From Oscillospiraceae bacterium (GTDB lineage Bacteria; Bacillota; Clostridia; Oscillospirales; Ruminococcaceae), in the NCBI GenBank assembly GCA_017545185.1, contig JAFWQJ010000033.1, positions 62,001 through 126,000 on the forward strand: a stretch of DNA of 64,000 nt, read 5' to 3'. How positions within the stretch are numbered: position 1 is the first letter of the stretch; each line of letters opens with the position of its first letter. A program made the position numbers and the translations under genes. The notes under the pieces are model-generated. The model searched no databases, was not told where the DNA came from, and saw only the letters and a program-made list of their open reading frames with translations. Positions 3,126 to 32,195 of the stretch are shown one piece after another.

Positions 3126-3465
3126 TCCAAAGGGCTGCCGCCCTTTGGAAACCTGCACGCGCAGAAAGCTGACGGCTGACTGTCGTCAGCCTGACGCTTT
3201 CAGCGCGCTGCGGATTGCTCTGCAATCCGCCTAGGGAGGCCCTCTCTTACAGGGCCCCCCTCTCATCAAAACGCTCCCCCGGAGCGTTTTGATGATTCAC
3301 CCCTGCGGTGCGCCTGACGATAGGGGAGTTTCGCTCGTTGCGACGAGCGACAAGGGCGCTGCCCTTGACCCGCCAGCTTTTTGAAAAAAGCTGGATCAAA
3401 AACTATTATGAGGCTGCAAACGGTTTGCTTACCGCCCGACCGGTTACGCCCCTTCTATCCACACA
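3126..3465 (+). repeat. Long structured repeat R1, copy 1
   Basis: About 340 bp of consecutive hairpins between the flavodiiron and ldhA genes, with a close relative at 31850-32195. Stems include 3128-3149, 3160-3207 (with a symmetric TGAC/TGAC internal loop), 3211-3231, 3265-3293, 3331-3350 and 3373-3394. Several stems differ from the second copy in sequence but remain paired. No convincing ORF is present. It runs directly into an R2 repeat at 3461. An RNA or a non-autonomous mobile element are both possible. Confidence 0.75.
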
Positions 3466-3540
3466 ATGGGGTCTGGGGACTAGTCCCCAGCGGGGGCTTG
3501 GGGGCAGCGCCCCCATTCTAAATCATCGCGAAGCGATACC
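3461..3540 (-). repeat. Short stop-anchored repeat, full copy (family R2)
   Basis: On the minus strand it begins at the ldhA stop codon: TAA, then GGTATCGC, the hairpin ATCGC-TTC-GCGAT (3525-3537), a G/C stem (3500-3514), and a distal stem CTGGGGAC/GTCCCCAG (3473-3490). The same series recurs at 37941-38011 and 44070-44155. Confidence 0.65.
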
Positions 3541-4557
3541 TTATTTCTGCGTCCCGTGGACGATTTCGCCGTCTTTCCAGACCAGTTCGTTTGCGCAGGC
3601 TCCGTCATCGTGCAGCGACTTCATATTGAGGACAGTTGTCTCAGCAATATTGGTCAGTGCTTCCTCGGTCAGGAACGCCTGATGCGACGTCACGATCACA
3701 TTCGGCATGGAAATGAGCCGCGCCAGAATATCGTCATTCAGGATATGCCCGGAGAGATCCTCATAGAAATACTCGGTCTCCTCCTCGTACACATCCAGAC
3801 ACGCCGCACCGATCTGCCGCGCCTTGATGCCTTCCAGCAGGCACTCCGCGTCGATCAGCGCGCCGCGGGACGTATTGATGAGCACCACGCCTTTTTTCAT
3901 CAGCTTGATCGAATCGCAGTTGACCAGATGCCTTGTCTCGTCGGTCAGCGGGCAGTGCAGCGAAATGATATCGCTGCGGGAGAACAGCTCCTCCAGCGTC
4001 ACATATTCGATATCGGAATCCTTTGCCGGGAACTTGTCGTATGCGATCACATGCATCCCGAAGCCGCGGCAGATATCAATGAACACGCGGCCGATCTTTC
4101 CGGTGCCGACGACGCCGACGGTCTTGCCGTGCAGATCAAAGCCGGTCATGCCGTTCAGCGAGAAGTTGAAATCTCTCGTGCGGATATACGCCTTGTGGAT
4201 GCGCCGCACAGAGGTCAGCAGAAGTGCCATTGCGTGCTCCGCGACCGCATAGGGCGAATATGCCGGCACATGCGCCACGCGCAGCCCGCAGTTTGCCGCC
4301 GCCTTCAGATCGACATTGTTATAGCCCGCACAGCGCAGCGCAACATATTTGCACTCCAGATCGGCGAGCTTTTCGAGCACATCGGCATTCAGGGTATCGT
4401 TGACGAAGCAGCAGACGCCGTCGCAGTTGCGCGCCAGCTCCGCGGTATCCTCGGTCAGTCTTGTTTCGTAGAATTTGAACTTGATGCCGTGCTCCGCGCC
4501 GAAGCGCTCAAAGGACGGCTTATCATACGCTTTTGCGTCAAAAAATGCAAATCTCAT
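3541..4557 (-). CDS. ldhA: D-lactate dehydrogenase (2-hydroxyacid dehydrogenase family)
   Basis: A 338-residue NAD-dependent enzyme of the D-isomer 2-hydroxyacid dehydrogenases, reducing pyruvate to D-lactate to regenerate NAD+ in fermentation. Visible features are the Rossmann motif GVVGTGKIGR in the middle, the catalytic arginine in INTSRGALID, and the catalytic histidine in TSHQAFLTEEA, which is the LdhA form of that motif. The length is normal. Start at 4557 with GGAG 9 nt upstream. It lies behind a small hypothetical gene, with a hairpin terminator between them, and its stop codon is the first codon of an R2 repeat. A related 2-hydroxyacid specificity cannot be excluded. Confidence 0.88.
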   Translation of the reverse strand: MRFAFFDAKAYDKPSFERFGAEHGIKFKFYETRLTEDTAELARNCDGVCCFVNDTLNADVLEKLADLECKYVALRCAGYNNVDLKAAANCGLRVAHVPAYSPYAVAEHAMALLLTSVRRIHKAYIRTRDFNFSLNGMTGFDLHGKTVGVVGTGKIGRVFIDICRGFGMHVIAYDKFPAKDSDIEYVTLEELFSRSDIISLHCPLTDETRHLVNCDSIKLMKKGVVLINTSRGALIDAECLLEGIKARQIGAACLDVYEEETEYFYEDLSGHILNDDILARLISMPNVIVTSHQAFLTEEALTNIAETTVLNMKSLHDDGACANELVWKDGEIVHGTQK

Positions 4558-4578
4558 GAAAAAATTCTCCGTGATTCA

Positions 4579-4617
4579 AAACGGGGCAGGCGGGCGCGCG
4601 TCCCGACCTACCCCGTT
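4579..4617 (-). terminator. Terminator of the 74-residue hypothetical gene
   Basis: An imperfect G/C-rich inverted repeat with arms CGGGGYAGG/CCTRCCCCG, flanked by AAAC and ending in GTTTTG on the minus strand. It lies just after the stop at 4624 and before the ldhA ribosome-binding site. Confidence 0.55.
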
Positions 4618-4623
4618 TGCGCT

Positions 4624-4848
4624 TTAGTTCAGGTTCACCGTGTCCATCATGCTTGCGAGCTGATCGTAATATTTCTTCGATTCAGCCTCTGTATCAAACA
4701 TCATGTTGATGACACTTTCCGCACTCTTGAAGCCGATGCGGATGCCGTACTGCTGCTTGCCCTTCGCGAGCGCCTCCTCAAGGGTAAAGCGCTTCATGAA
4801 CGAAACGGATTCAGCATTGATCATGGTATCTCTGACTCTCAAAAACAT
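4624..4848 (-). CDS. Small hypothetical protein
   Basis: 74 residues, no signal peptide and no membrane segment. The sequence starts MFLRVRDTMINAESVSF and ends in a charged helix (DTEAESKKYYDQLASMMD). I do not recognise the family. The start at 4848 is chosen because AAAGGAGG lies 7 nt upstream; the frame extends eight codons further without a better site. It sits between msmX and ldhA and is bounded by hairpins on both sides, so it is probably its own short transcript or a read-through product. Confidence 0.6.
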   Translation of the reverse strand: MFLRVRDTMINAESVSFMKRFTLEEALAKGKQQYGIRIGFKSAESVINMMFDTEAESKKYYDQLASMMDTVNLN

Positions 4849-4900
4849 AACAGATCCTCCTTTTGCTGCCATTCAAGGCGCATGATTGTAATATGTGCAT

Positions 4901-4936
4901 AACGACCCGTCCTGCCGGACAGCAGAACGGGTCGTT
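4901..4936 (-). terminator. Terminator of the sugar-ABC ATPase gene
   Basis: Perfect 11-bp stem (AACGACCCGTC-type arms at 4901-4911 and 4926-4936) immediately after the stop at 4952. The minus-strand arm ends in GTCGTT; the U tract is weak. Confidence 0.6.
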
Positions 4937-4951
4937 TGTACGAACAGGTAA

Positions 4952-6091
4952 TCAGTTGATAATCGTCTTTTCGGTTTCCTTGTCGAAGAGGTGGATCTTC
5001 TCCGCATCGAAGACGACGTCGATCTCGTCCTGCGGACGAGCGGTAGACTTCGGGGAAACACGGGCGGTGATCTTGTAGCCCTCGAAATCGAGGTACAGAT
5101 AGGTCTCAGCACCCATCAGCTCGGTAATCTCAACATTGCACTTGACGATACCGGTCGTCGCGTTTGCGAGGTACTGCGGCTCATCGTGGACGTTCTCCGG
5201 ACGGATGCCCATGATAACTTCCTTGTCAATGTAGTGCTCGAGATCCGGGGTGACCTTGCTCTGCGGCAGCTCGACCTCAGCGGTCATGCCTCTGTAGTTC
5301 TTGGTATCCTGCGAGCCGAACACAACGACGTACTTGCCGTCACGGTAGGTGAGGACAGCGTCGATGAAGTTCATCTGCGGAGAACCGAGGAAGCCTGCAA
5401 CGAACTTGTTGCACGGGGTCTCGTAGAGGTTCTGCGGGGAGTCGATCTGCTGCACGAAGCCGCCCTTCATGACGACGATGCGGTCGCCCATGGTCATAGC
5501 CTCGGTCTGGTCATGCGTAACATAGATGAAGGTTGTGCCGAGACGCTTGTGAAGCAGGGAGATCTCGGTTCTCATCTGTGCACGGAGCTTTGCGTCCAGG
5601 TTGGACAGCGGCTCGTCAAGCAGGAAGACCTGCGGGTTACGGACGATTGCACGGCCGAGCGCCACACGCTGACGCTGACCGCCGGACATTGCCTTCGGCT
5701 TACGGTTGAGCAGCGGGGTCAGGTCAAGGATTCTTGCAGCCTCCTCGACCTTTCTTGCGATCTCATCCTTCGGCACCTTGCGGAGCTTCAGGCCGAATGC
5801 CATGTTATCAAAAACCGTCATATGCGGATAAAGAGCGTAGTTCTGGAACACCATTGCGATATCGCGGTCCTTCGGAGCGATGTCGTTGACCAGACGGTCG
5901 CCGATGTAGAGCTCACCCTCGGAGATCTCCTCCAGACCTGCGATCATACGCAGGGTCGTAGACTTACCGCAGCCGGACGGGCCGACCAGAACGATAAACT
6001 CCTTGTCGCGGATCTCAAGGTTTACATCGGATACAGCGACAACGCCGCCGGGATACTTCTTGTAAATACCCCGCAAAGACAAACTTGCCAT
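4952..6091 (-). CDS. msmX: MsmX/UgpC-type ABC transporter ATPase
   Basis: 379 residues, the ATPase subunit of carbohydrate importers of the CUT1 class, acting on the cytosolic face of the membrane. It has Walker A (GPSGCGKST, about residue 38), signature MSGGQRQRV, Walker [13 protein letters not shown], the H-loop VTHDQTEAM, and a C-terminal OB-type regulatory region ([10 protein letters not shown]). MsmX-type ATPases often serve several sugar transporters from a solitary locus, and no permease or binding-protein gene is adjacent here. AGGAGG lies 8 nt from the ATG at 6091, whereas the ATG two codons upstream is too close, so 6091 is the start. Supplying a cellodextrin importer would fit the cellobiose phosphorylase at 47659 (inference). 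Confidence 0.9.
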
Positions 6092-6270
6092 TCTCATGTC
6101 CTCCTGTGATTTCTCAAAAATTATCCATGCAGAGCCGACAGCACCGGACGGACGATCCGGCATGTCTCATCCTGCAAGTATGCGCCTGACCGCATACATA
6201 ATGAAACAAATTTAACCTGCGGAAATCCGTGCCGGAACGGACAGTTCAAGCACATAAAACCGCTGATACA

Positions 6271-6299
6271 ATCATACCAGATTTTCGGCGTTCGGTCAA
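6271..6299 (-). promoter_or_regulatory. Promoter of the sugar-ABC ATPase gene
   Basis: On the minus strand: TTGACC (6299-6294), 17-nt spacer, TATGAT (6276-6271). A 5' leader of about 175 nt follows, in which I recognise no riboswitch. Confidence 0.65.
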
Positions 6300-6326
6300 G
6301 ATGATTATTGACCAAACTTCATTCCT

Positions 6327-7097
6327 TTACTTTATCCAATATGACGAAAGATTTTCCGCGCAAAAAGCGCAGACAGTTGAAATATCTGAATTTTTCAGCG
6401 CAGATTCTATATCTTTGTTGAAAAGTGGCAAATAGCGTTTTTCGGGCAGATCCGGGGGTAACTGCAGCATTCCGATCTGTACGCGGAGCAGGTTTTCAAC
6501 ATGATTGCCGACCGCGGCAAACATGCGCCGGACCTGATGATACTTCCCCTCATGCAGTTCCAGAACCGCAAGATCAGACGCGATCGCACAGCATTCCGCC
6601 GGCTGACATGCCTCCTCGCGGCCGCCCTCACGGAGCAGAATGCCGTCCCGGAATTTCCGGACATATTCCGGCCGGAACGGGTCGCGCAGCCTTGCTAAAT
6701 AATACTTCGCGACATGGTGCTTCGGGGAGATCATTCTGTGCGCGGTCACGCCGTCATCGGTGATGAGCAGCAGACCGGAGGTATCCTTATCGAGTCTGCC
6801 GACCGGTGCAAGCTTCGGCAGCCGGTCAGCGGGGTCAAGCAGATCGAGCACGGTTTTCTGCTTCGGGTCGCGGGCGGCTGTAATGACGCCCTCCGGCTTA
6901 TGGAGCAGGAACCAGTGAAATTCGCTGTAGGAAACGGGACTGCCGCGCAGCGTCACCGCATCGGTCTCAGGCTGCACAGCCGCATCCGGCTTCCGGATGA
7001 CCGTCCCGTTGACGGTCACGGCGCCGTGCCGGATCAGCTCGCCCAGTTCCCTGCGGGAGAGCGCGGTCTGTCCGGATAAGAAACGGTCAAGCCGCAT
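6327..7097 (-). CDS. rsuA: 16S rRNA pseudouridine synthase RsuA family
   Basis: 256 residues. An N-terminal S4 RNA-binding domain (MRLDRFLSGQTALSRREL, about 1-50) is followed by the RsuA/RluB-type catalytic domain with the nucleophilic aspartate in GRLDKDTSGLL (about residue 105) and the helper motif EGKYHQVRRMFAAVGNHV. It isomerises a specific uridine of small-subunit rRNA. The C-terminal 20 residues after the family fold are an unremarkable extension. It reads away from the DUF4830 gene, with which it shares a divergent intergenic region of about 70 bp. Confidence 0.85.
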   Translation of the reverse strand: MRLDRFLSGQTALSRRELGELIRHGAVTVNGTVIRKPDAAVQPETDAVTLRGSPVSYSEFHWFLLHKPEGVITAARDPKQKTVLDLLDPADRLPKLAPVGRLDKDTSGLLLITDDGVTAHRMISPKHHVAKYYLARLRDPFRPEYVRKFRDGILLREGGREEACQPAECCAIASDLAVLELHEGKYHQVRRMFAAVGNHVENLLRVQIGMLQLPPDLPEKRYLPLFNKDIESALKNSDISTVCAFCAENLSSYWIK

Positions 7098-7167
7098 ATC
7101 AGAACCTCACAAGGTATATCAGCGGGATATCCCGCATAGATATCATTCAGAAAAGGGGGTGATCGCC

Positions 7168-7587
7168 GTGCAGAGAACGAAGAAGCGGTTTCTCCGCACC
7201 ATGATTTTATGTCTGCTTCTGCTTCTGCTTGCCGCCGTTTGGCTGATGCGGAAACAGCCGCAGCAGGATGCTGTCATTCTGCCGGATGCAGCCGCTGCCG
7301 AAGCATGGCTGACGCTGCGCGGCTGGCAGCTCGGGGAACCGTCCGTCCGCGATACACAGATCCCGGATGCATGGAGCACCGCAGCGGGCCAGCGCTGGCT
7401 GACAGTGCAGCATCAGCAGGGGCTTTCGCCGGAGCAGTACGCAGGACAGTGTGCAAAGCAATATCTATACCCCGTGGAGAACGGGATCTCACCGCACTGC
7501 AAAGCGGAGCTGCTGATCGCCGGGGATGCGCTCGCGGGCGCACAGATTTATGACGAAGAAACGCAGCTTATTTATCCTGTTCGCTGA
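7168..7587 (+). CDS. DUF4830-like anchored protein
   Basis: 139 residues: a basic start (MQRTKKRFLR), one membrane anchor or signal segment (TMILCLLLLLLAAVWLM, about 11-27), and an extracytoplasmic domain with the spacing of DUF4830 (AWLTLRGWQLGEP, IPDAW, LSPEQYAGQCAKQYLYPV, GAQIYDEE). Its function is unknown. The start is GTG at 7168, preceded by AAAGGGGGTGATC; longer versions of the frame run into rsuA on the other strand and are rejected. Its last 20 bases overlap the 3' end of nrdR tail to tail. Confidence 0.65.
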   Translation: MQRTKKRFLRTMILCLLLLLLAAVWLMRKQPQQDAVILPDAAAAEAWLTLRGWQLGEPSVRDTQIPDAWSTAAGQRWLTVQHQQGLSPEQYAGQCAKQYLYPVENGISPHCKAELLIAGDALAGAQIYDEETQLIYPVR

Positions 7588-8053
7588 CTGCGTTCTCTGC
7601 GTTTTCGGCCTTCTCCTGCATTTCGCTGATGACGCGGACGAAATCCGCGGCGTCGGAAAAGCGCAGATACACCGAAGCAAAGCGGACATAGGCGACCGGG
7701 TCGATCTTGATGAGCCGCTCCATGACCATGCTGCCGATGCGGTCGGGGGAGACCTCCGCGACCATTTCATTTGCAAGCTCGGTTTCGATCTCATCGACGA
7801 GCTGATTGACCTGCTCGTTTTTGACCGGCCGCTTCTTGATCGAGTTGTAGATGCCGCCCATGAGCTTGTTGCGGTTGAACGGCTCGATCGAACCGTCGCG
7901 CTTGGTCACCATGAGCATGGGTCGTTCCACACATTCAAAGGTCGTGAAGCGCTTGCCGCACACCGTGCAGCATCTGCGGCGTTTTTTCTTTCCTTCCACA
8001 GAGCGCGAATCAATGACCTTTGTATCCTCATACCCGCAGAACGGACAACGCAT
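7568..8053 (-). CDS. nrdR: Transcriptional repressor NrdR
   Basis: 161 residues. The N-terminal zinc ribbon has two Cys pairs (CPFCGY at 3-8 and CTVCGKRFTTFE), followed by an ATP-cone domain (KRDGSIEPFNRNKLMGGI). NrdR senses ATP/dATP and represses ribonucleotide reductase genes by binding NrdR boxes. Start at 8053, where the family begins MRCPFCG, with GGGAG 8 nt upstream; the longer frame has no support. The nrd operon is not in the window. Confidence 0.95.
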   Translation of the reverse strand: MRCPFCGYEDTKVIDSRSVEGKKKRRRCCTVCGKRFTTFECVERPMLMVTKRDGSIEPFNRNKLMGGIYNSIKKRPVKNEQVNQLVDEIETELANEMVAEVSPDRIGSMVMERLIKIDPVAYVRFASVYLRFSDAADFVRVISEMQEKAENAENAVSEQDK

Positions 8054-8167
8054 AGAGGACACTCCCTTCTGTTTTGTAATCTCCGGTTTTCTTTTTCTTT
8101 TTATATCACATGCGTCTGACCGCATGGATTCAGCATTCTTTTCTCTTTGTATCCTGTGTGCTTCCGG

Positions 8168-8968
8168 TCATCGCCCGCCGGGGCTCCCGGCCTTCTGGAT
8201 CAGCCTGTTCAGCTTCTGCCAGTCCTCGGCCAGCTCCGCGGTACTGCCGAACGCCTCGCGGTAAAGCTCCAGCGTGACGGCACCGTCAAAGCCCTGCTGC
8301 TGCAGCGCCGCAAGGAACGGCGCGATCTGAAAGCGCCCTTTGCCGATGCGCAGGCAGTCTCCGAGCCCGCCGTGGTCGCTGATATGCACATGCACGATAT
8401 GCTTTCCGACAGCGCGCACCGCCTCCGTGATATCCACACCGGAGCGCACCGCCTGCTTGGTATCAAAGGTCAGCTTTGCGTCATCGCCGAGCAGCCGGCA
8501 GAATTCCCGCAGGAATTTCAGGCTCTGGCTTTCAAACTTCACGACATTCTCCTGCGTGACGGTCACGCCGTAGGGCTTTGCCGCCTCACAGAGCATCCGG
8601 AAACGCTCGCAGTAGATCTCCGTTGTCACCCTGCCGGGATTGGCGCCGTGCAGGACGTAATACTGTGCACCGGCACGCTGCATCAGCTCAAACACATGCT
8701 TTGCCTCATCGAGGAAGTCGGCGCAGCGGCGCGGATATTTGGAAAACAGCATAAAGCCTTCCTGTGCCGCCGTCCACGGATGCACCGAAACACAGCGCAC
8801 GCCGAAGCGTTTCAGCAGCGCGCAGAGGTCATTTGCAAAGACCGGTTTGCATTCAGAGGGGGCATTGAGGAACAGCTCCACATTCTGGATCCCGTGCAGA
8901 CAAAGGTCATAGAGCGCGTCCTCGGTCGGCTTCGGAAACAGACATGCAGTTGAAACAGCAGCGATCAT
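8168..8968 (-). CDS. Sugar phosphate isomerase/epimerase-like TIM-barrel protein
   Basis: 266 residues with the pattern of the xylose isomerase-like TIM barrel (AP endonuclease family 2 superfamily): VTQENV for the metal-binding glutamate, LTFDTKQA, VHISDHG and the late VTLELYREAF. Such proteins use a divalent metal to isomerise sugars or inositols, or act as endonuclease IV; the substrate cannot be told from sequence alone. Start at 8968 behind GGAGGAGG. Single gene with its own promoter, which overlaps the secDF terminator. Confidence 0.75.
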   Translation of the reverse strand: MIAAVSTACLFPKPTEDALYDLCLHGIQNVELFLNAPSECKPVFANDLCALLKRFGVRCVSVHPWTAAQEGFMLFSKYPRRCADFLDEAKHVFELMQRAGAQYYVLHGANPGRVTTEIYCERFRMLCEAAKPYGVTVTQENVVKFESQSLKFLREFCRLLGDDAKLTFDTKQAVRSGVDITEAVRAVGKHIVHVHISDHGGLGDCLRIGKGRFQIAPFLAALQQQGFDGAVTLELYREAFGSTAELAEDWQKLNRLIQKAGSPGGR

Positions 8969-9037
8969 GGTTTCCTCCTCCGTCTGCGGCAGCGAATATA
9001 CGCAGCATACGGCAATATTCGCATTTTATACGGCTTT

Positions 9038-9067
9038 ATTATAACACGAAGCACCCTGCAAACGCAA
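9038..9067 (-). promoter_or_regulatory. Promoter of the isomerase gene
   Basis: Minus strand TTGCGT (9067-9062), 18-nt spacer, TATAAT (9043-9038). The -35 element lies inside the loop of the secDF terminator. Confidence 0.5.
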
Positions 9068-9076
9068 GGTGCTTCG
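9047..9076 (-). terminator. secDF terminator
   Basis: A perfect 9-bp stem (CGAAGCACC at 9047-9055, GGTGCTTCG at 9068-9076) lies 90 nt after secF. There is no clean U tract, since the downstream bases are shared with the next promoter. Confidence 0.55.
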
Positions 9077-9165
9077 TTGATTTTCAGAGAATCCCACAAG
9101 GACGGGGAGCATTCCGGATTATTTTTTGTTTTTTCGTATGCATTCTTCGCCGGAACGCGGGGTTT

Positions 9166-10167
9166 TTACGCTGTTTCCTCGGTCTTTGCAGCCTTCTTCT
9201 CACGCATCTTCCACGCAGTCCAGAGCATCGGAGCGAGGCACAGCGAGGAGTAGCATCCGGAGATCATACCGACGGTCATCGGGATGCTGAACCGCATGAT
9301 CGAAGTCACATTGTTGACCGCCGCAAGGATCGTGACGATCAGCATGGCGGTAATGGTCGTGATCGAGGTGCGGATCGTTCTGCGCATGGTCTGGCTCAGC
9401 GAGATGTTGACCAGCTCCGGCAGCTTGGTAGTCGGCGGCAGCAGACCCTGGTTCTCACGGATACGGTCGTAGATAACGATCGTGTCGTTGACCGAGTAAC
9501 CGAGGATCGTCAGGATAACAGCCATGAAGTTCGAGTCGATCTCAAAGCGGCAGATGACGAACGTACCGAACACGATCACGAGGTCATGCAGCAGCGCGAC
9601 GACTGCGAACACACCGGCACTCCAGCCGGAAATACGCTTGAATCTCCAGGAGATATACAGGATCAGAACGATCGAAGCAAAGATCGCGGCAACGGAGCAC
9701 TTCAGCAGGAAGCGCTTACCGGATTTTGCGGCAACGTCGTTGGATTCCAGAGACTTGATGTCGTTATCCTTGAAATTGTCCTGCAGCTTGCTGAGCAGTG
9801 CATCCTGCATGTCAGCAGAGAAGCCCTGCTTCATGGAGAAGCTGAGCGTCAGGGACTGCTCCTTCTCGCCGGTGAAGGTCTCACCGGTCTGCACATTGAC
9901 AGCCGTGCCGAGGTAATCCTTCGCGATATTCGCGACGGCATTTTCGTCGATCGTGCCGGAATAGCTGTAGGTCGCGATCGTACCGCCCTTGAACTCAATG
10001 GAGATCAGCACGCCGAAAATGAAGCAGCAGAGCACCACGAGCACCATGAGCACGGAGGACAGCGTAAAGAACTTCTTGCGGTTTCCGTAGAAGTCCCGCA
10101 CCTTGACCTGCTCAAGGATCGACTGGATATTCGTATTGGTCTTGTTCTTCTTGTTAGACTTACTCAT
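9166..10167 (-). CDS. secF: Protein translocase subunit SecF
   Basis: 333 residues: a cytosolic lysine-rich start, TM1 (about 37-57), a large extracytoplasmic domain, then five C-terminal membrane segments with family motifs (GYSVNDTIVIYDRIRENQ and the RTIRTSITT stretch). With SecD it uses the proton or sodium gradient to help release proteins emerging from SecYEG. Its ATG overlaps the secD stop by 4 nt, indicating translational coupling. Confidence 0.93.
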   Translation of the reverse strand: MSKSNKKNKTNTNIQSILEQVKVRDFYGNRKKFFTLSSVLMVLVVLCCFIFGVLISIEFKGGTIATYSYSGTIDENAVANIAKDYLGTAVNVQTGETFTGEKEQSLTLSFSMKQGFSADMQDALLSKLQDNFKDNDIKSLESNDVAAKSGKRFLLKCSVAAIFASIVLILYISWRFKRISGWSAGVFAVVALLHDLVIVFGTFVICRFEIDSNFMAVILTILGYSVNDTIVIYDRIRENQGLLPPTTKLPELVNISLSQTMRRTIRTSITTITAMLIVTILAAVNNVTSIMRFSIPMTVGMISGCYSSLCLAPMLWTAWKMREKKAAKTEETA

Positions 10168-11621
10168 TTTTCAGCACCTCCGTACAGCTTTCTGTTCTGG
10201 AAGCACTGGAACTTCGAGAGGGAGGTCAGCATCAGGCGGGAAGCCAGAACACCCATGATAAAGTTGAAGATAACACCGGTCAGCAGCGTAAAGCCGAATG
10301 CGTAGATCGTGCCCTCGGTGGAAACGCCGAACCAGCGGAACAGGAACGAAAGGATCTTTGCAAAGAAGCTGGACGACACGCCGAATGCGCCCATCAGGAT
10401 GATCGAAACGATGATAACGGTCATGTTGCCGTCGAGGATCGAGGTAAAGGAACGCTTGTAAGCGGCCTTCAGGGAAGCATCCAGCGACTTGCCGGTGTTC
10501 AGCTCCTCCTTGATGCGCTCGCCGGTGATGATGTTACAGTCAACGCCCATACCGATCGCGAGGATGATACCTGCGATACCCGGAATGGTCAGCGTGTTGG
10601 AATCCTCAAATGCGAACCAGCCGGAGATCACAGCCAGCGTGCCCGCGACCTGACCGAGCAGTGCGACCGCCGCGACAAAGCCCGGCAGACGGTACAGCAC
10701 GATCATGTAGATCATAATGAGAACGAGTGCGATCGCGCCGGACGTCATCATGATCTTCAGTGCGCCGTTGCCCATGCTCGGGGAAATGGTCTTGTAGGAT
10801 TCGGTCGTCAGATTGAACGGCAGTGCACCGCCGTTGATCTTGTCGGCCAGTGCCTTAGCGCCGTCGTAGTCAAAGCTGCCGGTGATCTGTGCATGACCGT
10901 CGCTGATGACGGCATTGACGGACGGATAGGAAATGCAGTTGCTGTCCATCCAGATCGAAATTACGTGATTGGAATTGGAGCCGTTCACATCGAGGTACTC
11001 GGCATTGCCGTTCATGGCTTCCTGCGTCGCCTGTGCAAATGCCTTTGAACCGTCGGCTTTCAGCACGAGGGAAACAGCATAATTGCCGGTGCGGTTGCCG
11101 GAGCCGTCTGTTTCCAGAGAAACATAAGCCTCCTCAACGTCGCTGCCTTCGATGATGACGTCGCCGCCCGGTGTGACGGTCGCCTCGCCGTGCTCGTCCA
11201 CATCGGTCGAATAAACAAGACCCTTGCGGAACTGGAGCTTTGCGGTATCGCCGAGCTCCTTGACGGCTGCGGTCGGATCGAAGTTCTTTTCACCGCTCTG
11301 CCACGGGAAACGGACGATGACCTTGTCATTGCCCTCGTCGGTATAGACCTCATAGTCATTGATGCCGAGATTGACCAGACGGTCCTTCATGACTCTTTCA
11401 ACAGCCTCTAACTGTTCTTTTGTTGCATCGGTGCCGTCCGCAGGACCGAACGTGACATCGACACCGCCCTGAATATCAATGCCCAGACGGATGTCCTCCA
11501 GACCCTTGATATACCGGGTTGTCACATCACCGTACTGATTTCTGACGCCGAACACGGTCGAAGCCGCAAACGCAAGGATCAGAAAGAACACGATGAAAAA
11601 GACGGATTTTTTGCTCTTCAC
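10164..11621 (-). CDS. secD: Protein translocase subunit SecD
   Basis: 485 residues with an N-terminal membrane segment, the conserved LGIDIQGGVDVTFGP element just after it, a periplasm-type domain, and a C-terminal bundle with the family motif GMGVDCNIITGERIKEEL. The start is GTG at 11621 (7 nt from AAGGAGG); a TTG two codons upstream is too close to the ribosome site. First gene of secDF, driven by a consensus promoter at 11687-11715. Confidence 0.93.
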   Translation of the reverse strand: MKSKKSVFFIVFFLILAFAASTVFGVRNQYGDVTTRYIKGLEDIRLGIDIQGGVDVTFGPADGTDATKEQLEAVERVMKDRLVNLGINDYEVYTDEGNDKVIVRFPWQSGEKNFDPTAAVKELGDTAKLQFRKGLVYSTDVDEHGEATVTPGGDVIIEGSDVEEAYVSLETDGSGNRTGNYAVSLVLKADGSKAFAQATQEAMNGNAEYLDVNGSNSNHVISIWMDSNCISYPSVNAVISDGHAQITGSFDYDGAKALADKINGGALPFNLTTESYKTISPSMGNGALKIMMTSGAIALVLIMIYMIVLYRLPGFVAAVALLGQVAGTLAVISGWFAFEDSNTLTIPGIAGIILAIGMGVDCNIITGERIKEELNTGKSLDASLKAAYKRSFTSILDGNMTVIIVSIILMGAFGVSSSFFAKILSFLFRWFGVSTEGTIYAFGFTLLTGVIFNFIMGVLASRLMLTSLSKFQCFQNRKLYGGAEK

Positions 11622-11686
11622 TGCCAAGCCTCCTTGTTTTTTGAACTAATCGGGCATAGCAGTCGCGTATGCCGACAAGTATTTCT

Positions 11687-13619: not shown

Positions 13620-13621
13620 AT

Positions 13622-23458: not shown

Positions 23459-23522
23459 AAAGCCTCCTGATATCGCGTCATACTGCCGTTTATCCGGATT
23501 TTTTGCCGATATTGCGCTCCGC

Positions 23523-24878: not shown

Positions 24879-24897
24879 GCAGCGTTCCTTTCGGTGC

Positions 24898-26007
24898 TTA
24901 TCTTCTGACCTGAACCGGCATGATGACCGCGACAGAGCCGTCGCCGTCTGCTTCCATGACCTTGACCGCACGGTCTGCCGCCGTCAGGAACAGACGCACT
25001 CTGTCACCCTGCACGGCACGGACAGCCTCGAGCAGATACCGGTTATTGAAGCCGATGACCAGCTTTTCGCCGGTGATATCGCAGGAGATCTGGTCATCAA
25101 CGCTGCCGACGACATTCTGGCAGCTGATGAGCACGCGGTCCTCCTCGAACTGGAAGCGCACGGCTGTCTTGTTCTTTTCCGAGATCAGCAGGCCGCAGCG
25201 TTCCAGGCTGTCGATCAGCTCGCGGCGGTTCATCAGGACCTCGGTCTTTGCGTTTTCCGGAATGCTCCGGCGGTAGTTGATAAATTCACCGGCAAGCAGT
25301 CTGGTATAGACCGTGTACTTGCCGATCTCAAAGATCGCATGATGCTGGTCAAGGCGGATCGCGCACGGATGCTCGTTGTTTTCGTCATCCTCGAGCAGAT
25401 GCTGGATCTCGCGCAGCGCCTTTGCCGGAACGACGAACTTCATCGGCTCCTGACCCGGCAGCGGTTCGGTGCGCAGCGCCATGCGGTAATTATCCAGTGC
25501 AACGATGTTCAGCACATCGTCTGCCATTTCGATCAGTTCGCCGGTGAAGATCGGCTTGGTCTCATCGAGCGAAACGGCATAGATCGTCTGGTCGATCATA
25601 TTCTTCAGCAGGCTCTGCGGGATGACCGCGCCCTGCTGCTGTTCGACATCCGGCAGTTCCGGATATTCGTCTGCATTCATGCCGGCCAGCTGGCAGGATG
25701 TGCCGCCGCCGGTAATCGTGATCTTCAGTCTTTCGTCAGTCTCGATGACCAGAACGCCGTCCGGCATTCTGCGGATGATCTCGGAGAAGAAGCGGCTGTC
25801 AGCCAGCAGCATGCCTTCCTCCTCGACAGCCGCGGGGATCTGCGTGCGGATGCCGAGCTCCAGATCATAGCCGGTCAGCGACAGCTCCTGTCCCGAGGCA
25901 CAGATGCGGATCGCCGCAAGTGCTTCCATCGGTGTTTTGACGCTTGTTGCTTTTGCCACGTTCGGCAGAACTTCATAGAGGTCGTTTTTCTGACAGGTGA
26001 TCTTCAT
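24898..26007 (-). CDS. dnaN: DNA polymerase III beta sliding clamp
   Basis: 369 residues with the three-domain clamp pattern, starting [17 protein letters not shown] and ending with the family C-terminal VIMPVQVR. It forms a ring on DNA that tethers polymerase and partner proteins. Start at 26007 with AAAGGA about 9 nt upstream; a 58-codon upstream extension runs into the origin region and is rejected. Confidence 0.96.
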
Positions 26008-26564
26008 CTGGATCGTTCCTTTCGGTTTCAGATTTTCTGCGGCGGATTTCCACAAGGGATGTTTTCCGCGACCGGAGCAGTCCGGTATCGGATAATAGGT
26101 ATTTTTCAGGAGCCGCAGTAGGGGGTGTGGAAATGTTGAGAGGCAGAAGCGGCAGTCAGAGAATGCCTGCTGCAGCCGCAAAAAACGAACTGCGCGGATG
26201 CCTCGGATCTTTCCACGGCCGCAGTTGAGTGATTGTGGAGTATGTGGACAGAAGAAAATGACAAAAAGGCAACAGTTTGAAAAGTGGAAACTCCGGAAAT
26301 AATTGTTGAAAACTTCGTTGAAAGTGTGAATACTCGGAGTATATCGCTATGTTTTCAACATCCGCAGGGTGGAGAACAGGAAAATGCCCGCAGATACAGG
26401 GTCACTTTTCAACATTTTATTCAACAGCTGTTGAAACATTCAAAATCGAACAAATGCTCCCTGTAACCATTTTGTCATATTTTCCGGACGGTTGAATTTA
26501 CCGTTTTTGACACCGTTCGGTAAAATTCTGTCAATTGCACAAAGAAGTGGAAAAGTCCGGAATA
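26008..26564. other. Candidate replication origin, dnaA-dnaN intergenic region
   Basis: 557 bp without a gene. A cluster of TGTTGAAAA-type nonamers lies at 26304-26312, 26316-26324 (CGTTGAAAG), 26352-26360, 26406-26414, 26418-26426 and 26429-26437; the last two form a perfect 16-bp palindrome (26420-26435). Further TGTGGA-type sites lie at 26234, 26243 and TTTCCACA near 26046. These differ from the E. coli-type TTATCCACA box. AT-rich stretches at about 26411-26480 could be the unwinding region. The location beside dnaA and dnaN makes oriC likely, but function is inference. Confidence 0.7.
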
Positions 26565-27926
26565 TTATTTTCCGGAACCGTCGCGGATCGTCTTGGTGAT
26601 CGTTTCGATCGCATCGCGGAGGTTCGTATCCTTCTTCATATTTTTCTCGACATACTTGACCGCATATACAATAGTAGAGTGATCGCGGTTGCCGAATTCC
26701 TCGCCGATCGCGGCCAGTGTCATCTGTGTGATCTCATGCACCAGATAGATCGCGACCTTGCGGGCATTGGAGATCTGCTGCGAGCGCTTCTTTGAGCGGA
26801 TGTCATCCGCGGTGACGCCGTACAGGTTGGAGACCTCCTGAATGATGTTCTCGACCGTGACCGGTGTCGGCTGTTCGTCCGTCAGGATATCGCGGATGAC
26901 ATTCTGCGCCATGGAGATCGACGGCGAAGAATCCGCAAAGGACTTCATGGCGTTCAGACGCTTGACCGCGCCCTCCAGCTGACGGATATTCGTTTTCAGA
27001 CGGTTCGCGATAAATTCCGCGACATCATCCGGAATATTGAGATCGAGCAGCTCTGCCTTGCGGCGGATGATCGCAACTCTCGTTTCAAAGTCCGGCATCG
27101 AGATATCGGTGATCAGTCCGGATTCAAAGCGTGTGCGGATGCGGTCCTCCAGAATCTTGATATCGCGCGGCGGACGGTCGGATGTCAGAACGATCTGTCT
27201 GCCGGCGGAATGCAGAATATTGAAGGTGTGGAAAAATTCTTCCTGTGTGGATTCCTTGCCGCTGATGAACTGCACATCGTCAACCAGCAGCACATCCGCA
27301 GTGCGGTATTTCTCATGGAACTGGGAGGTATCCTTTTTCTGCTGGATCGCTTCGATCAGCTCATTCGTGAAGGTCTCGCCGGTGACATAAATGATCTTCA
27401 TGTCCGGATTGCGCTTCTTCATCTCATGGGAGATCGCAGTCAGCAGATGCGTCTTGCCGAGACCGGACGGACCGTAGATAAACAGCGGATTATAGGTATT
27501 GCCGTTGTTGTCGCCGCGCGCGATGCTCGTGCAGGCTGCATAGGCAAACTGGTTCGAGCCGCCGACGATGAACGTATCAAAGGTATACGCATATTCGCCG
27601 TCCTTGATGGTCTTTTCCAGTGCATCTGCGGTGTTCTGATCCTGCTCGGCAGCATCGGCCGCATCGTCGGTGCCGTTCTGCACAAGGAGGCGGAGCTGTA
27701 CCGGGAAGCCGAGGATCTGCTCAAAGCCCTCCTGCAGCAAATGCGCGTAATTGTTGTTGACGACAAGGCGCTGAAAATCGGAAGCACAATAAAAAACAGC
27801 GTCTGTTCCCTCCAGACGCGCAGGCTTCAGCGTATCCAGCCAGAGATTCCGTGCAATGTCGCCGACTTTTCCGTTCTTTGTGCAGTATGCCTTGACAGCA
27901 TCAAACACTTCTTCAAAGGAATTCAA
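26565..27926 (-). CDS. dnaA: Chromosomal replication initiator DnaA
   Basis: 453 residues. Domain I (about 1-75), a short Asp/Ala-rich linker, AAA+ domain with Walker A YGPSGLGKTHL and Walker B LLVDDVQFISG, and the DNA-binding domain IV with the signature RDHSTIVYAVKYVEKN. It binds DnaA boxes and opens oriC. The frame continues far upstream, but the likely start is TTG at 27926 (10 nt from GAGGA), giving MNSFEEVFDAV; GTG at 27935 is nearly fused to the ribosome site and is the alternative. It has a clear promoter at 28039-28067. Confidence 0.93.
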   Translation of the reverse strand: MNSFEEVFDAVKAYCTKNGKVGDIARNLWLDTLKPARLEGTDAVFYCASDFQRLVVNNNYAHLLQEGFEQILGFPVQLRLLVQNGTDDAADAAEQDQNTADALEKTIKDGEYAYTFDTFIVGGSNQFAYAACTSIARGDNNGNTYNPLFIYGPSGLGKTHLLTAISHEMKKRNPDMKIIYVTGETFTNELIEAIQQKKDTSQFHEKYRTADVLLVDDVQFISGKESTQEEFFHTFNILHSAGRQIVLTSDRPPRDIKILEDRIRTRFESGLITDISMPDFETRVAIIRRKAELLDLNIPDDVAEFIANRLKTNIRQLEGAVKRLNAMKSFADSSPSISMAQNVIRDILTDEQPTPVTVENIIQEVSNLYGVTADDIRSKKRSQQISNARKVAIYLVHEITQMTLAAIGEEFGNRDHSTIVYAVKYVEKNMKKDTNLRDAIETITKTIRDGSGK

Positions 27927-28038
27927 TCTGTTCACATCCTCATTTCTATATTTAACAAATACACATCCCGTCCTGCACGGAAACAGCGGCGTTTTTCGGG
28001 CTGAAAAGCCGGATTTCGTGCAGTCGTATACACGATAT

Positions 28039-28067
28039 ATTATAGCATAATGCGAAGATAATTTCAA
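28039..28067 (-). promoter_or_regulatory. dnaA promoter
   Basis: Minus strand TTGAAA (28067-28062), 17-nt spacer, TATAAT (28044-28039), about 110 nt from the dnaA start. No canonical DnaA box was seen next to it. Confidence 0.75.
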
Positions 28068-28417
28068 GCGATTCGCAGAATCATTGGCGGTTTATACAAA
28101 AGGTCGCAGGGGAAGCAAGGGATATTTATAAAACGGCTTCAGCGGCCTTTTTTGTTATGTTTTTTTGCTTTGGAACGCCCTTCGGACACGCTTCCGGAGA
28201 TCGTATTTCCGGTCACCCGCATGTAAAATCATATATCCGGAACATGTGACGCAGTCAGCCGGTTTGTCGTCAGAACAGTCAGAGGGTCCGTGCTTTTTTT
28301 GCGGAAACATTCCCCGCCGGACGGATGTGCAGGCAGTCTCCGGCAGGGGGACAGCCCGGTTTTTGCGCCCGCGCTCCCTTTCGGTGCGGAAATGCAGTAT
28401 TTTTTTCAAAAAACCTC

Positions 28418-28446
28418 TTGTAAAATCGCGCGGAATCATGTATAAT
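28418..28446 (+). promoter_or_regulatory. Promoter of the YfhO-SHOCT gene
   Basis: TTGTAA (28418-28423), 17-nt spacer, TATAAT (28441-28446). The rest of the dnaA-yfhO divergent region (28070-28417) shows no gene; its only visible structure is a short GGC/GCC hairpin followed by TTTTTT at about 28133-28155. Confidence 0.7.
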
Positions 28447-28509
28447 AGTAGAGTATGCTCTTTATTCGTGTACGGACGAATAGAAAGGCAAAGGTAAAGG
28501 AGGAATTTG

Positions 28510-31500
28510 ATGGCAAAATCGAAAAAGAAAGCCGCTGCCGTTCAGGCGGCTCCCGTGACACCGGCAACCGTAAATGCCGGAGGCGGAGGCGTGAAGGGAT
28601 GGCTTTCCCGCAACTGGTGCTATATCGCGGCATTTATCCTGCCGGTTGCGCTGATCTATGCGGCCTATGCACTTTTCGGGATGTACCCGTTCGGGGAGCA
28701 TTCCGTGCTGTGCCTTGACCTGAACGGTCAGTATGTGTATTATTTTGAGGCGATCCGGGATGCGTTCCACGGGGACGGCAGCATCCTCTATAACTGGTCG
28801 CGCAATCTCTCCGGCGGCTATCAGGGCGTCATCGGCTATTATCTCGCCAGCCCCTTTACGCTGATCGTGATTTTGCTGCCGCGCACGATGCTGCTCGGCG
28901 CGCTGCTCATCATGATCTTAGCGAAGCTCGGCGCTGCATCCGTGACATTCTGCTACTACGCACGGAAGTCCAAGCATGTGAAGCCGCTTCTGGGCGTCAT
29001 GCTCGGCACGATGTTCGGCATGTGCGCTTACGGCATCATCCAGACGATCGACCCGATGTGGCTGGACGGCCTTGTGTTCCTGCCGCTGATCGTGCTCGGC
29101 ATTGAGTATCTGGTCGATGACGGCAGAAAGATCAATTTCATCATTCCGCTGGCACTGATGTGCGTCGCAAACTTCTATATCGGCTTCATGTGCTGCATCT
29201 TCTCCGCGATCTATTTCTTCTTCTATGTCTGCTTCGGTTCGGACACCGCGTTCCTTGCACCGAAGCACAGAAAGGAGATCCCGGTCGTATTCGGCAGAAT
29301 GGCACTGGCCTCCGGCGTTGCGATCGCCTGTGCAGCCTTCATGATCCTGCCGGTCTACAATGCACTGGCACTCGGCAAGTTTGATTTTACCAAGCCGGAC
29401 TGGTCGATGAAGTGGCAGTTCTCGCCGCTGGAATTCATCGCGCAGTTCTGCGTCAATCAGTATAATTCCGTCAATGTCGAGGGCAAGCCGGAAATCTACT
29501 GCGGCGTGCTCGCGTTCCTGACGCTGCCGCTGTTCTTCCTCAACCGCCGCATTCCGTGGAACAAGAAGGTCGGCTATGCATTCCTGACCGTGTTCATGTT
29601 CCTCTGCATGATCGCAAGACCGATCGACATGCTCTGGCACGGCGGACAGATGCCGAACTGGCTCCCGTTCCGCTATTCGTTCATCTTCTCGTTCATTCTG
29701 CTGAGCATGGCAGCCATGACGCTGCGCTATGCGTCCAGCATCAAGAAAACCTATTTAGCTGGCAGCTTTGCCGTCATGTTCGTGCTGCTGATGATCATTG
29801 ACAAAAAGCAGTATCTGAACATGAAGGGCGTTGTGTATCTCGATACCTACAAGTCGATCTGGATGACGGTCCTGCTGCTGGCGATCTACAGCATCTTCAT
29901 TGTGCTGCTGAGCAAGAAGAATCTGTCCAAGGGGCTTTATGCGACGGTCATGGCCTGTATGATGATCGTGGTCAGCGCAGAGCTCACCTATAACGCAAAA
30001 TGTGAATTTGAGGATATCCACACGGAGGTCTGCTATTCCTCCAGAAAATCCTACCGCGAATATGTCCAGAGCGGCCGCGATATGGTCAAGCGTCTGACCG
30101 AGCGTGACGGCAGCTTCTACAGAGCAGAAAAGACCTATGTCCGTACCGTCAACGATAACGCGGGCTTCGGTCTGCGCGGCATCACGCATTCCAGCTCGGT
30201 CATGAACGCAAAGATCCTGACCTTCATTGAGACGATGGGCTACACCACAAGCTCGTATTTCTCCAGATACGACGGCAATACGCCGCTTGCGGACAGCGTG
30301 CTCGGCATCAAGTATGTCTTTGACAAGGACGACCCGAACGAGAATCTGCTCAAGAAGGGCATCAATTCCGATGTCGGCGCGGCATACGAAAAGATCTATA
30401 CCGATAAAGCAAAGACGCAGTCCGAAACGGATATGGACGTCAATGTCTATCAGAATCCGAATGCGCTCGGCATCGGCTATATGGTCAGCAAGGATATCCT
30501 GCGCGTCAATGCGTTCGGCAATGACAACCCGTTCAACAGCCAGAATATCCTGCTTTCCACAATTTCCGGCAATACCACGTTTACCGCGGGCGGCGGCTTC
30601 GACGACTGGCACAAGTATTACACGCCGATGGCCGTGACCCTCACCGATGAAATGGTCGAAATGGGTCTGACGAACCCGCGTCTGAATCAGTGCTATGAGG
30701 ATGCTTACGGCACACAGAGAAGATTCCGCGAGGTCGGCTGGGATCCGGCAGATGTCAACTCTCATGCGGCTGACCCGACCGTCGATCTGTTCCTCGAAAC
30801 AGTATCCGATGAACCGCTCTATATGTTCATCAAGACCGAGAACCAGAGCAAGGTCAACCTCTGGCTGACGGATCAGTGGAATACCGACCCGAACGCCATG
30901 CTCAATACCGACGGCTCCGCGGCCAGCTCTCTCGGCTCTTACTTCGAGGGCGACGATTACCGCATCCTGTATATCGGCACCTATCCCGCCGGCCAGAAGC
31001 TGCAGCTCCGTCTGACGCTGCTGACGGATTCTGCCGGTACGAAGGAAAAATACTGTATCGTCAAGGAGTTCCAGTTCTATCACTTCCATTCCGACCTGTT
31101 CGAGCAGGATATCAAGAAGCTGCAGAACGAGGAATCCCAGTGGAAGCTGACGAAATTCGGCGGCAGAACGCTCGTCGGTACGATCACCGCAAAGGAAAAT
31201 GAGATCATGATGACCTCGATCCCTGCGGAGCCGGGCTGGAAGGTCTGGGTTGACGGCAAGCGCTACAAGCATCCGGAAACGGTCGATAACAGAGCCGTGG
31301 ATGCGGACTTCGTCACGCTGTTCAAGGCGATGATCGGTGTGGAGCTCTCTCCGGGTACGCATACGGTCAAGATGAAGTATACGCCGCCCGGCCTGAACGG
31401 CGGTCTGTTCCTCCTGCTGATCGGCCTTGCCTGCATCGTACTGTTCTATCGCTATGATAAGGAGCACAACAAGGTGCTTGCGATGATCCGCGAGAATAAG

Positions 31501-31734
31501 AAGAAGGGCATCTACGAGCTGCCGTTCAAGGATGATCCGGAGCCGGAAGCAAGGAAGAAGGCTGCGGCTGCCAAGAAGAAGGAAGCAGAGGAGAAGGTCA
31601 AGGAAAAGGTCAAGGAAGAGATCTCTGCTGACATGGTCGCGGACGAACTGAAGAAGCTGAAGGAACTGCTGGACGAAGGCGTCCTCACCAAGGAAGAATT
31701 CGACGAGCAGAAAAAGAAGCTTCTGAAGAAATAA
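28510..31734 (+). CDS. YfhO-family membrane protein with C-terminal SHOCT domain
   Basis: 1074 residues. A lysine-rich start is followed by a membrane segment (NWCYIAAFILPVALIYAAY, about 32-50) and many further helices in the first half, a large extracytoplasmic part (about 470-940), a last helix (about 962-982), and a charged cytosolic tail ending in a SHOCT domain (LKKLKELLDEGVLTKEEFDE, last 32 residues). YfhO proteins are GT-C-like and implicated in glycosylating lipoteichoic acid or other envelope polymers; SHOCT is a short oligomerisation module. Start at 28510 behind AAAGGAGG. Its stop is followed directly by a partial R3 repeat. Confidence 0.85.
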   Translation: MAKSKKKAAAVQAAPVTPATVNAGGGGVKGWLSRNWCYIAAFILPVALIYAAYALFGMYPFGEHSVLCLDLNGQYVYYFEAIRDAFHGDGSILYNWSRNLSGGYQGVIGYYLASPFTLIVILLPRTMLLGALLIMILAKLGAASVTFCYYARKSKHVKPLLGVMLGTMFGMCAYGIIQTIDPMWLDGLVFLPLIVLGIEYLVDDGRKINFIIPLALMCVANFYIGFMCCIFSAIYFFFYVCFGSDTAFLAPKHRKEIPVVFGRMALASGVAIACAAFMILPVYNALALGKFDFTKPDWSMKWQFSPLEFIAQFCVNQYNSVNVEGKPEIYCGVLAFLTLPLFFLNRRIPWNKKVGYAFLTVFMFLCMIARPIDMLWHGGQMPNWLPFRYSFIFSFILLSMAAMTLRYASSIKKTYLAGSFAVMFVLLMIIDKKQYLNMKGVVYLDTYKSIWMTVLLLAIYSIFIVLLSKKNLSKGLYATVMACMMIVVSAELTYNAKCEFEDIHTEVCYSSRKSYREYVQSGRDMVKRLTERDGSFYRAEKTYVRTVNDNAGFGLRGITHSSSVMNAKILTFIETMGYTTSSYFSRYDGNTPLADSVLGIKYVFDKDDPNENLLKKGINSDVGAAYEKIYTDKAKTQSETDMDVNVYQNPNALGIGYMVSKDILRVNAFGNDNPFNSQNILLSTISGNTTFTAGGGFDDWHKYYTPMAVTLTDEMVEMGLTNPRLNQCYEDAYGTQRRFREVGWDPADVNSHAADPTVDLFLETVSDEPLYMFIKTENQSKVNLWLTDQWNTDPNAMLNTDGSAASSLGSYFEGDDYRILYIGTYPAGQKLQLRLTLLTDSAGTKEKYCIVKEFQFYHFHSDLFEQDIKKLQNEESQWKLTKFGGRTLVGTITAKENEIMMTSIPAEPGWKVWVDGKRYKHPETVDNRAVDADFVTLFKAMIGVELSPGTHTVKMKYTPPGLNGGLFLLLIGLACIVLFYRYDKEHNKVLAMIRENKKKGIYELPFKDDPEPEARKKAAAAKKKEAEEKVKEKVKEEISADMVADELKKLKELLDEGVLTKEEFDEQKKKLLKK

Positions 31735-31770
31735 GCGCGGAGCCCGCGCGGGTATTTCCCTCCGGGAGCG
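31735..31770 (+). repeat. Stop-anchored repeat (family R3), 5' part only
   Basis: It begins at the base after the yfhO TAA: stem GCGCGG-AGC-CCGCGC, then the shared stretch GGTATTTCCCTCCGGGAGCG. The same unit occurs twice in tandem at 37641-37720. Confidence 0.55.
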
Positions 31771-31782
31771 TAACCGAAAATG

Positions 31783-31817
31783 AAAAAGGACGCTGATTGA
31801 TGATCGGCGTCCTTTTT
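31783..31817 (+). terminator. yfhO terminator
   Basis: An 11-bp stem AAAAAGGACGC (31783-31793) / GCGTCCTTTTT (31807-31817) with a terminal T run. A near twin lies at 37890-37927. Confidence 0.8.
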
Positions 31818-31849
31818 GTTGTCTGTTTTTTTCCGCGCCTGTGCGGATA

Positions 31850-32195
31850 GAACCAAAGGGCTCCCGCCCTTTGGAAACCTGAGCGCGCCGGATGCTGACG
31901 GCTGACTTTCGTCAGCCTGACGCATTCGGCGCGCTGCGGATTGCTCTGCAATCCGCCTAGGGAGGCCCTCTCTTACAGGGTCCCCCTCTCATCAAAACGC
32001 TCCCCCGGAGCGTTTTGATGATTCACCCCTGCGGTGCGCCTGACGATAGGGGAGTTTCGCCGTCTGCGGACGGCGACAAGGGCGCTGCCCTTGACCCGCA
32101 AGCCTTTGAAAAGGCTTGACCGAAACTTTTGTGAGGCTGCAAACGGTTAGCATATCGCTTGACCGGTTACGTCCTTTCATGCATCGCAGATACAT
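31850..32195 (+). repeat. Long structured repeat R1, copy 2
   Basis: Same order of hairpins as 3126-3465: 31853-31874, 31882-31934 (with the same TGAC/TGAC internal loop), 31936-31956, 31991-32019, 32057-32076 and 32099-32118. It ends in ATGCATCGCAGATAC, the leader also seen at the end of the R2 copy at 38000. It fills the gap between yfhO and spoIIP and contains no convincing ORF. Confidence 0.75.

Follow-up and report, generated by a model that had tools for sequence, protein, structure and literature searches.

Several bacterial repeats are built from hairpin modules: the bacterial interspersed mosaic elements (BIMEs) of Escherichia coli are mosaics of palindromes and linkers at the 3' ends of genes that evolve in concert, the pneumococcal BOX elements are modular intergenic hairpins, and the attC sites of integrons carry variable paired stems that act as folded DNA, also at gene 3' ends. 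Here we describe a chain of hairpins present in two copies, R1 and R2, in a stretch of 64,000 nucleotides from an Oscillospiraceae bacterium (contig JAFWQJ010000033.1, positions 62,001 to 126,000, referred to below as the window). Our reading, to which we give a probability of about 0.58, is that R1 and R2 belong to a modular, non-coding repeat family that Ruminococcus and related Oscillospirales carry in many copies, a mosaic of DNA hairpins comparable to BIMEs and to repetitive extragenic palindromes (REPs), which would be spread and homogenised by DNA copying. With BIMEs, as these are commonly described, the family has in common the mosaic build and the concerted evolution, and it differs in its sequences, its phylum and its longer chain. 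It also resembles BOX elements and attC sites as generally described, although in contrast to attC the copies lie beside ordinary chromosomal genes, with no cassette array.

REPs of the GTAG and CGTC families are high-copy intergenic palindromes whose sub-families use alternative complementary stem bases; they lie mostly downstream of coding regions, in tandem and convergent gaps, include species-specific types and show frequent G-T pairs, according to the main text of PMC3733652, in which Ruminococcus, Clostridi- and Firmicutes have 0 mentions. Measured against that text, the present family shares the intergenic place (2 of 101 copies in divergent gaps, and 1 of 23 in other genera) and the alternative complementary stems, whereas a REP is a single palindrome of 20-40 bp tagged GTAG or CGTC and the unit found here spans some 320 bp, carries no constant tag of this kind and strings together about nine different hairpins whose order is fixed; furthermore, G-T pairs, frequent in REPs, are here no commoner than A-C in the hairpins named P7 to P9 below. 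For GTAG REPs a cognate Y1 transposase (REP-associated tyrosine transposase, RAYT) is expected, and its domain PF01797 was not found in five genomes, that of the window included. The family is not filed as a member of the REP families, and the match to a known mobile element that an earlier note on this DNA had kept in view exists by analogy, with REPs and BIMEs, and not by sequence. Among the papers that searches of an open-access library listed, none describes this hairpin-chain family, as judged by titles and abstract openings.

R1 and R2 are copies of one chain of nine hairpins, about 320 bp long, whose differences fall on both arms of the stems. The earlier note had placed two alike copies at 3126-3465 and 31850-32195, where they are indeed found; a family profile of 320 columns, built from 18 full-length copies, delimits them as 3127-3447 (R1) and 31853-32170 (R2). 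They are 90% identical across query positions 2-330 by blastn, and 93.5% across 263 columns with other scoring. Folded as DNA, R1 gives a chain of hairpins, P1 to P9, at a z of -14.7 relative to 100 dinucleotide shuffles; as RNA the corresponding values are -10.4 for the + strand and -11.3 for the - strand, and 0 shuffles are as good in any of the three cases. The parts of the two copies are the following.

3126 to 3149, + strand: R1 hairpin P1 (CCAAAGGGC..GCCCTTTGG), then AAACCTG (fold and family alignment)
3158 to 3207, + strand: R1 hairpin P2, with a TGAC/TGAC internal loop; replaced by a different hairpin in some copies
3210 to 3230, + strand: R1 hairpin P3 (GCGGATTGC TCT GCAATCCGC)
3233 to 3261, + strand: R1 hairpin P4, with the 7-nt loop CTCTTAC (family alignment and fold)
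3263 to 3295, + strand: R1 hairpin P5, core ACGCTCC CCC GGAGCGT (family alignment and fold)
3300 to 3326, + strand: R1 hairpin P6, weak (fold)
3331 to 3350, + strand: R1 hairpin P7, with foot CGC/GCG, 4 bp that are paired and hypervariable, and a TGCG loop
3351 to 3367, + strand: R1 hairpin P8
3373 to 3394, + strand: R1 hairpin P9 (CCAGCTTTTT, GA, AAAAAGCTGG)
3395 to 3448, + strand: R1 3' tail (ATCAAAAACT..GACCGGTTACG), facing the stop codon of the next gene
31853 to 32170, + strand: R2, the full-length second copy (profile)
32057 to 32076, + strand: R2 hairpin P7, inner stem CGTC/GACG
32077 to 32093, + strand: R2 hairpin P8
32099 to 32118, + strand: R2 hairpin P9 (CAAGCCTTT, GA, AAAGGCTTG)

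The three stem changes on both arms that had been singled out earlier are present in the sequence, one of them (GGATGC/GCATTC) including a G-T pair, and the TGAC/TGAC internal loop occurs in both copies. Its interpretation as a kinked motif with tandem G-A pairs does not extend to the family: by eye, the 5' TGAC is retained in only 8 of the 18 full-length copies of the own genome, and in the family alignment 7 of the 18 hold another hairpin at that place.

The count of two copies proved far too low. In the own genome (3.6 Mb, 94 contigs) R1 has at least 51 blastn matches, ranging from full length down to single parts, a lower bound obtained with 40 of 87 first-look candidates scored, and the profile gives 44 matches across the 40 own-genome loci fetched. 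Looking for further copies in relatives, as the earlier note had proposed, showed R1 to be matched in 29 of 61 genomes, the own one included. The profile yielded 120 distinct matches in the first locus set (E up to 1e-10) and 326 matches, or 290 distinct rows, once pattern-fetched loci were added (E up to 1e-5). Of 394 genomes sampled across the order, 35, belonging to 24 of 169 genera, contain a pattern for the core hairpin P7, TTTCGCNNNNTGCGNNNNGCGAC, which does not require pairing of its N positions. The reversed control pattern is present in 3 of the 394, with one match each; the highest count in one genome is 81 (45+36), and several genomes have only one or two. Among the matches listed are Ruminococcus, Oscillospiraceae, Angelakisella, Oscillibacter and Avoscillospira assemblies, and in some species the inner P7 stem is one and the same throughout the copies listed, AGTC/GACT being found in all ten listed copies of one genome (G301) and ten of another (G363).

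Across 26 copies from other genera (20 loci), the order P4-P5-P6-P7-P8-P9 can be seen by eye in several, not all, with differing stems. P7 sets a CGC/GCG foot and a TGCG loop around four freely varying base pairs: of 257 complete P7 hairpins, 226 pair without a mismatch, and these 226 have 26 different inner 4-bp stems. Foot and loop are constant in part by construction, as many loci were fetched, and hairpins extracted, with patterns demanding both. In a set gathered without a TGCG-demanding pattern, the loop is TGCG in 38 of 41 distinct P7 strings. Also by eye, P7 is flanked by TTT and C, a constant GTAG or CGTC tag is absent from the alignments, and P1 and P8 resemble each other in stems and linkers, as related modules would.

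With respect to genes, which were called with a home-made codon-based caller, the element is intergenic: 0 of the 120 distinct profile matches lie more than 30% inside a called gene, and some loci hold two matches. Both neighbours were called for 101 copies, of which 46 have both genes antisense, 39 lie between convergent genes, 14 have both genes in sense and 2 lie between divergent genes; for comparison, 5 of 24 window gaps longer than 80 bp are divergent and 2 of 24 convergent. In six groups from other genera the divergent share is 1 of 23. In 10 of the 18 full-length copies the element is separated from its 3'-side gene by a terminator-like hairpin (by eye). Ten listed places on one contig (G003:C18, about 372-492 kb) are divided five per strand, which gives no hint of a replication-strand orientation.

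To follow change between close relatives, R1 and its fellows were compared with those of a species about 94% identical (G021), in which 20 own sites have orthologous sites, 18 of the pairs being comparable. Hairpins at shared sites are swapped as blocks. At the R1 site the non-coding flanks are nearly identical, whereas P2, P4, P6, P7, P8 and P9 differ with their stems still paired, P5 differs in part, P1 differs in its loop alone and P3 is the same. In 17 pairs both sites have a P7: it is identical in 8, and the remaining 9 together have 20 bp changed on both arms against 4 on one. Mean identity over the 18 pairs is 84% in the element and 94% in the flanks. In 11 of the 18 the closest paralog in the own genome equals or exceeds the ortholog in similarity, and in 7 it does not. 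Two copies 6.6 kb apart, L027 and L028, are 97.5% identical, while L027 and its own ortholog are only 60.5% identical, a sign that one site has been copied onto another in one of the two lineages. Whole hairpins are also gained or lost, P9 being present in L034, whereas its ortholog L150 has AAACTTTTG direct repeats with no P9 between them. Within-genome homogenisation and recurring palindromic modules, the marks of a BIME-like mosaic, are thus both found. In some places (L013 against L323; L021 against L324 and L325) the own genome and G021 (and G003) cease to be similar at a gap that holds the element, and element copies may be rearrangement points.

That pairing is kept despite changed sequence, the central claim of the earlier note, holds well beyond the two copies and across genera. 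In an alignment of 60 P7-P9 sequences from many species (A1), 97.3% of the cells at paired positions are paired, against 80.8% in shuffles. The covariation score is 0.466, a value that 0 of 500 shuffles reach (0.145 in shuffles), and it is at most 0.124 when partners are slid. Changes on both sides affect 16 of 22 pairs; summed over pairs, two-sided changes account for 241 cells and one-sided changes for 11, and 36 cells are unpaired. The number of further pair types (33) does not differ from that in shuffles (32.5). Columns 59/71 of P9 (T-A or C-G) are coupled with tail column 82 (A or G), which could reflect a base triple or an alternative pairing. A four-way junction of P7-P9 closed by a helix was considered as well and set aside, its own pairs scoring 3.50 against 3.45 for swapped ones (sd 0.026; maximum of 200 shuffles 3.53), with no convincing covariation.

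A stem that is kept as RNA tolerates G-U pairs and does not tolerate A-C mismatches. In P7-P9 (174 distinct sequences, RNAalifold consensus) G-T occurs in 22, A-C in 34 and other mismatches in 31 of 3303 cells, whereas RNase P, run through the same procedure in the same bacteria (found in 58 of 61 genomes, aligned for 30 loci), shows 224, 23 and 58 of 2468 cells, respectively (Fisher p 1.3e-15). The cleaned stems of P3, P5 and P7 (hairpins at least 70% paired) give 10 G-T, 18 A-C and 19 others in 2234 cells, or 4 G-T and 6 A-C in copies with both neighbour genes antisense, and five stems with hand-set pairs, uncleaned, give 77 G-T and 91 A-C. We conclude that the well-aligned stems carry the RNA signature, an excess of G-U, on neither strand. 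Because this excess is missing from the well-aligned hairpins, and because block replacement is visible between close species, the covariation is better explained at the level of DNA.

We propose that about nine hairpins in a fixed order, placed between genes and mostly at their 3' ends, would work like the REP and BIME repeats of proteobacteria, with copies spreading within a genome and overwriting one another hairpin by hairpin through DNA copying. When a whole hairpin is copied as DNA, both its arms arrive together. The route may be short-tract ectopic gene conversion, possibly with template switching at palindromes; a trans-acting enzyme may have spread the family, and the P7 foot and loop (CGC..TGCG..GCG) may be read as DNA by some factor, although no such factor was found.

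Several results weigh against this proposal. The P3-P5 stretch (74 sequences, RNAalifold) has 69 G-T against 32 A-C, which is not DNA-like; its P4 part is poorly aligned, and hand-set pairs give G-T to A-C ratios of 9:13 in P3 and 40:39 in P5. The possible base triple of columns 59/71/82 would be unusual for a plain repeat. The tandem orientation bias of 46:14 is not reproduced in the six other-genus groups (7:6), and several of the 35 genomes of the order have just one or two pattern matches, at least one of them unpaired (G214). A near-identical donor that alone could account for the tract swapped at R1's ortholog was not found, the best candidate reaching 90.4% over 261 bases. Pairs of empty and filled sites showed no clean insertion with a target-site duplication: the G021 sites that correspond to L008 and L021 lack the element, and no clean junction or duplication could be read. 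Finally, no enzyme or carrier that spreads the family was found. The 72,556 plasmid and 50,697 phage records searched hold no match to the element. IMG/VR contigs filed as viral contain 54 matches to the P7 pattern on 53 contigs, of which 48 with unpaired inner stems were read as chance and 6 are paired; 5 of these 6, on four contigs (L362, L373, L381 and L391), also carry a P9-like hairpin, which leaves room for transfer by phages.

As to a function of the hairpin chain, which we infer and do not observe, we tentatively entertain a DNA-acting structured element, whose hairpins would extrude or fold as single-stranded DNA and be read by a factor through feet and loops that stay constant, with inner stems drifting to species-typical sequences as long as they remain Watson-Crick.

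A neutral mutational product, with no function, whose palindromes template switching would correct and conversion would homogenise, appears to us rather unlikely. Template switching can produce multi-base compensatory changes in stems, with both arms altered in one event and no G-U intermediates, and can also invert loops, as PMC8794818 describes for RNA genes such as rRNA. Set beside that account, the present hairpins likewise change on both arms together, and differ in that they are also exchanged between repeats, of which a genome has tens, and in that inverted loops were not seen. The strand-symmetric rarity of mismatches and the block changes agree with such an origin, the absence of P9 between direct repeats in L150 is what slippage would give, and avoidance of divergent gaps could stem from selection against damage alone. 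Among 239 TTTCGC..GCGA hairpins whose inner stem is paired, however, the inverted loop CGCA occurs in 0 and TGCG in 235. This count is partly biased, many loci having been fetched with a TGCG pattern; in the set gathered without it TGCG stands in 38 of 41 distinct strings. The count was anchored on TTTCGC, since a symmetric pattern also matches the reverse complement of every native hairpin. Because loop inversion was not seen, within that bias, a constraint on the loops is suggested, and the constant order across genera also wants a reason.

Alternatively, the hairpins could be needed in the RNA of both strands, for example as two-way terminators or as stabilisers of mRNA 3' ends between convergent genes. 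Only Watson-Crick pairs would serve both strands, so that A-C and G-T should be equally rare, as they about are, and convergent gaps do hold 39 of 101 copies against 2 of 24 window gaps. Yet for 60 of the 101 copies the gap is a tandem one, with transcription mainly of one strand, and the mismatches of these copies, few as they are (10 in the 46 both-antisense copies, 0 G-T or A-C in the 14 both-sense copies), show no strand preference; moreover, terminator-like hairpins and their T runs lie outside the element, and the fixed order of nine hairpins stays unexplained, which makes this alternative improbable.

No more probable is a structured non-coding RNA or 3'-untranslated-region element made from one strand, with the fold selected in RNA, as the earlier note had suggested alongside single-stranded DNA. 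Strong covariation across genera, constant loops, the possible triple between P9 and tail, low folding energy on both strands and the G-T excess in the P3-P5 stretch (69 against 32) would all suit it. Structured RNA is nevertheless not supported, because G-T is no commoner than A-C in the well-aligned stems (22 against 34 in P7-P9, and no excess in the cleaned stems or in copies with both neighbours antisense, 4 against 6) where RNase P shows a roughly tenfold excess (224 against 23). Tens of copies stand beside unrelated genes in mixed orientation, with a terminator-like hairpin intervening on the 3' side in 10 of 18. The element, in which the earlier note had recognised no known class, has no Rfam match either: at gathering score the Rfam covariance models found only tRNA and 5S rRNA in the window and 10 loci, none on the element, and a threshold relaxed to E 5 brought up no credible match to it and nothing near gathering score.

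Finally, a non-autonomous transposon moved by a Y1 transposase (REP-associated or IS200/IS605) would suit the patchy distribution, the species-typical stems and the REP-like hairpin anatomy, and three other carriers (G001, G023 and G031) do have one or two PF01797 matches, but it is made very improbable by 0 matches to this REP-type Y1 transposase domain at E 0.001 in the own genome (G000), G021, G003, G002 and G004, all copy-rich and with a completeness of 94-99%, their assemblies not being complete.

The surroundings of R1 and R2 in the window comprise the following features.

1283 to 3073, - strand: gene for a flavodiiron-type protein, left of R1, with ODP, flavodoxin, flavin reductase and rubredoxin-like domains
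3541 to 4557, - strand: gene for a D-isomer 2-hydroxyacid dehydrogenase, right of R1
28507 to 31734, + strand: gene for a YfhO-like membrane protein, left of R2
31783 to 31817, + strand: hairpin and T run resembling an intrinsic terminator, between the YfhO-like gene and R2
32258 to 33388, + strand: gene for a SpoIIP-like protein, right of R2, start approximate

Other shared modules accompany the element. An extra hairpin (GGGGTCTGGGGACTAGTCCCCAG..GGGGGCAGCGCCCCC) lies 3' of R1 at 3468-3516, and the same or a very similar module adjoins other copies (e.g. L039, L136 and L150). It is followed at 3525-3540 by ATCGCGAAGCGATACC, ending on the stop codon side of the next gene, which recurs beside other element copies and, with 2 mismatches, at 1267-1282. 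In total, 11 of the 24 window gaps longer than 80 bp, including those of R1 and R2, contain stretches common to other loci, and these stretches cover 1913 of 7037 window-gap bases as compared to 0 of 9600 sampled coding bases. Another mosaic gap, 37571-38011, shares 363 of its 441 bases with 15 other loci and consists of different hairpin modules and a terminator-like hairpin, with no R1-type copy by profile search. Terminator-like hairpins that are nearly alike, of the type AAAAGGGTGCCGA..CAGCACCC or AAAAGGACGCCGAT..GGCGTCC, are seen at many gene ends (31783-31817, L006, L011, L013, L016, L020 and L021), as if terminators too were copied between sites.

Covariation in stems is widely taken as proof of functional RNA, and the family presented here is a case in which a DNA-level explanation accounts for it better. 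If the chain is indeed a DNA-acting element, the balance of G-T and A-C would be a general test to separate selected DNA hairpins from RNA. A further question posed by the family is what agent spreads repeats of this kind in genomes where no REP-type transposase was found. It is common in Ruminococcus assemblies, where, with some copies at contig ends among the pattern matches listed, it may break assemblies, and it constitutes a rich natural set for watching the exchange of hairpins between sites.

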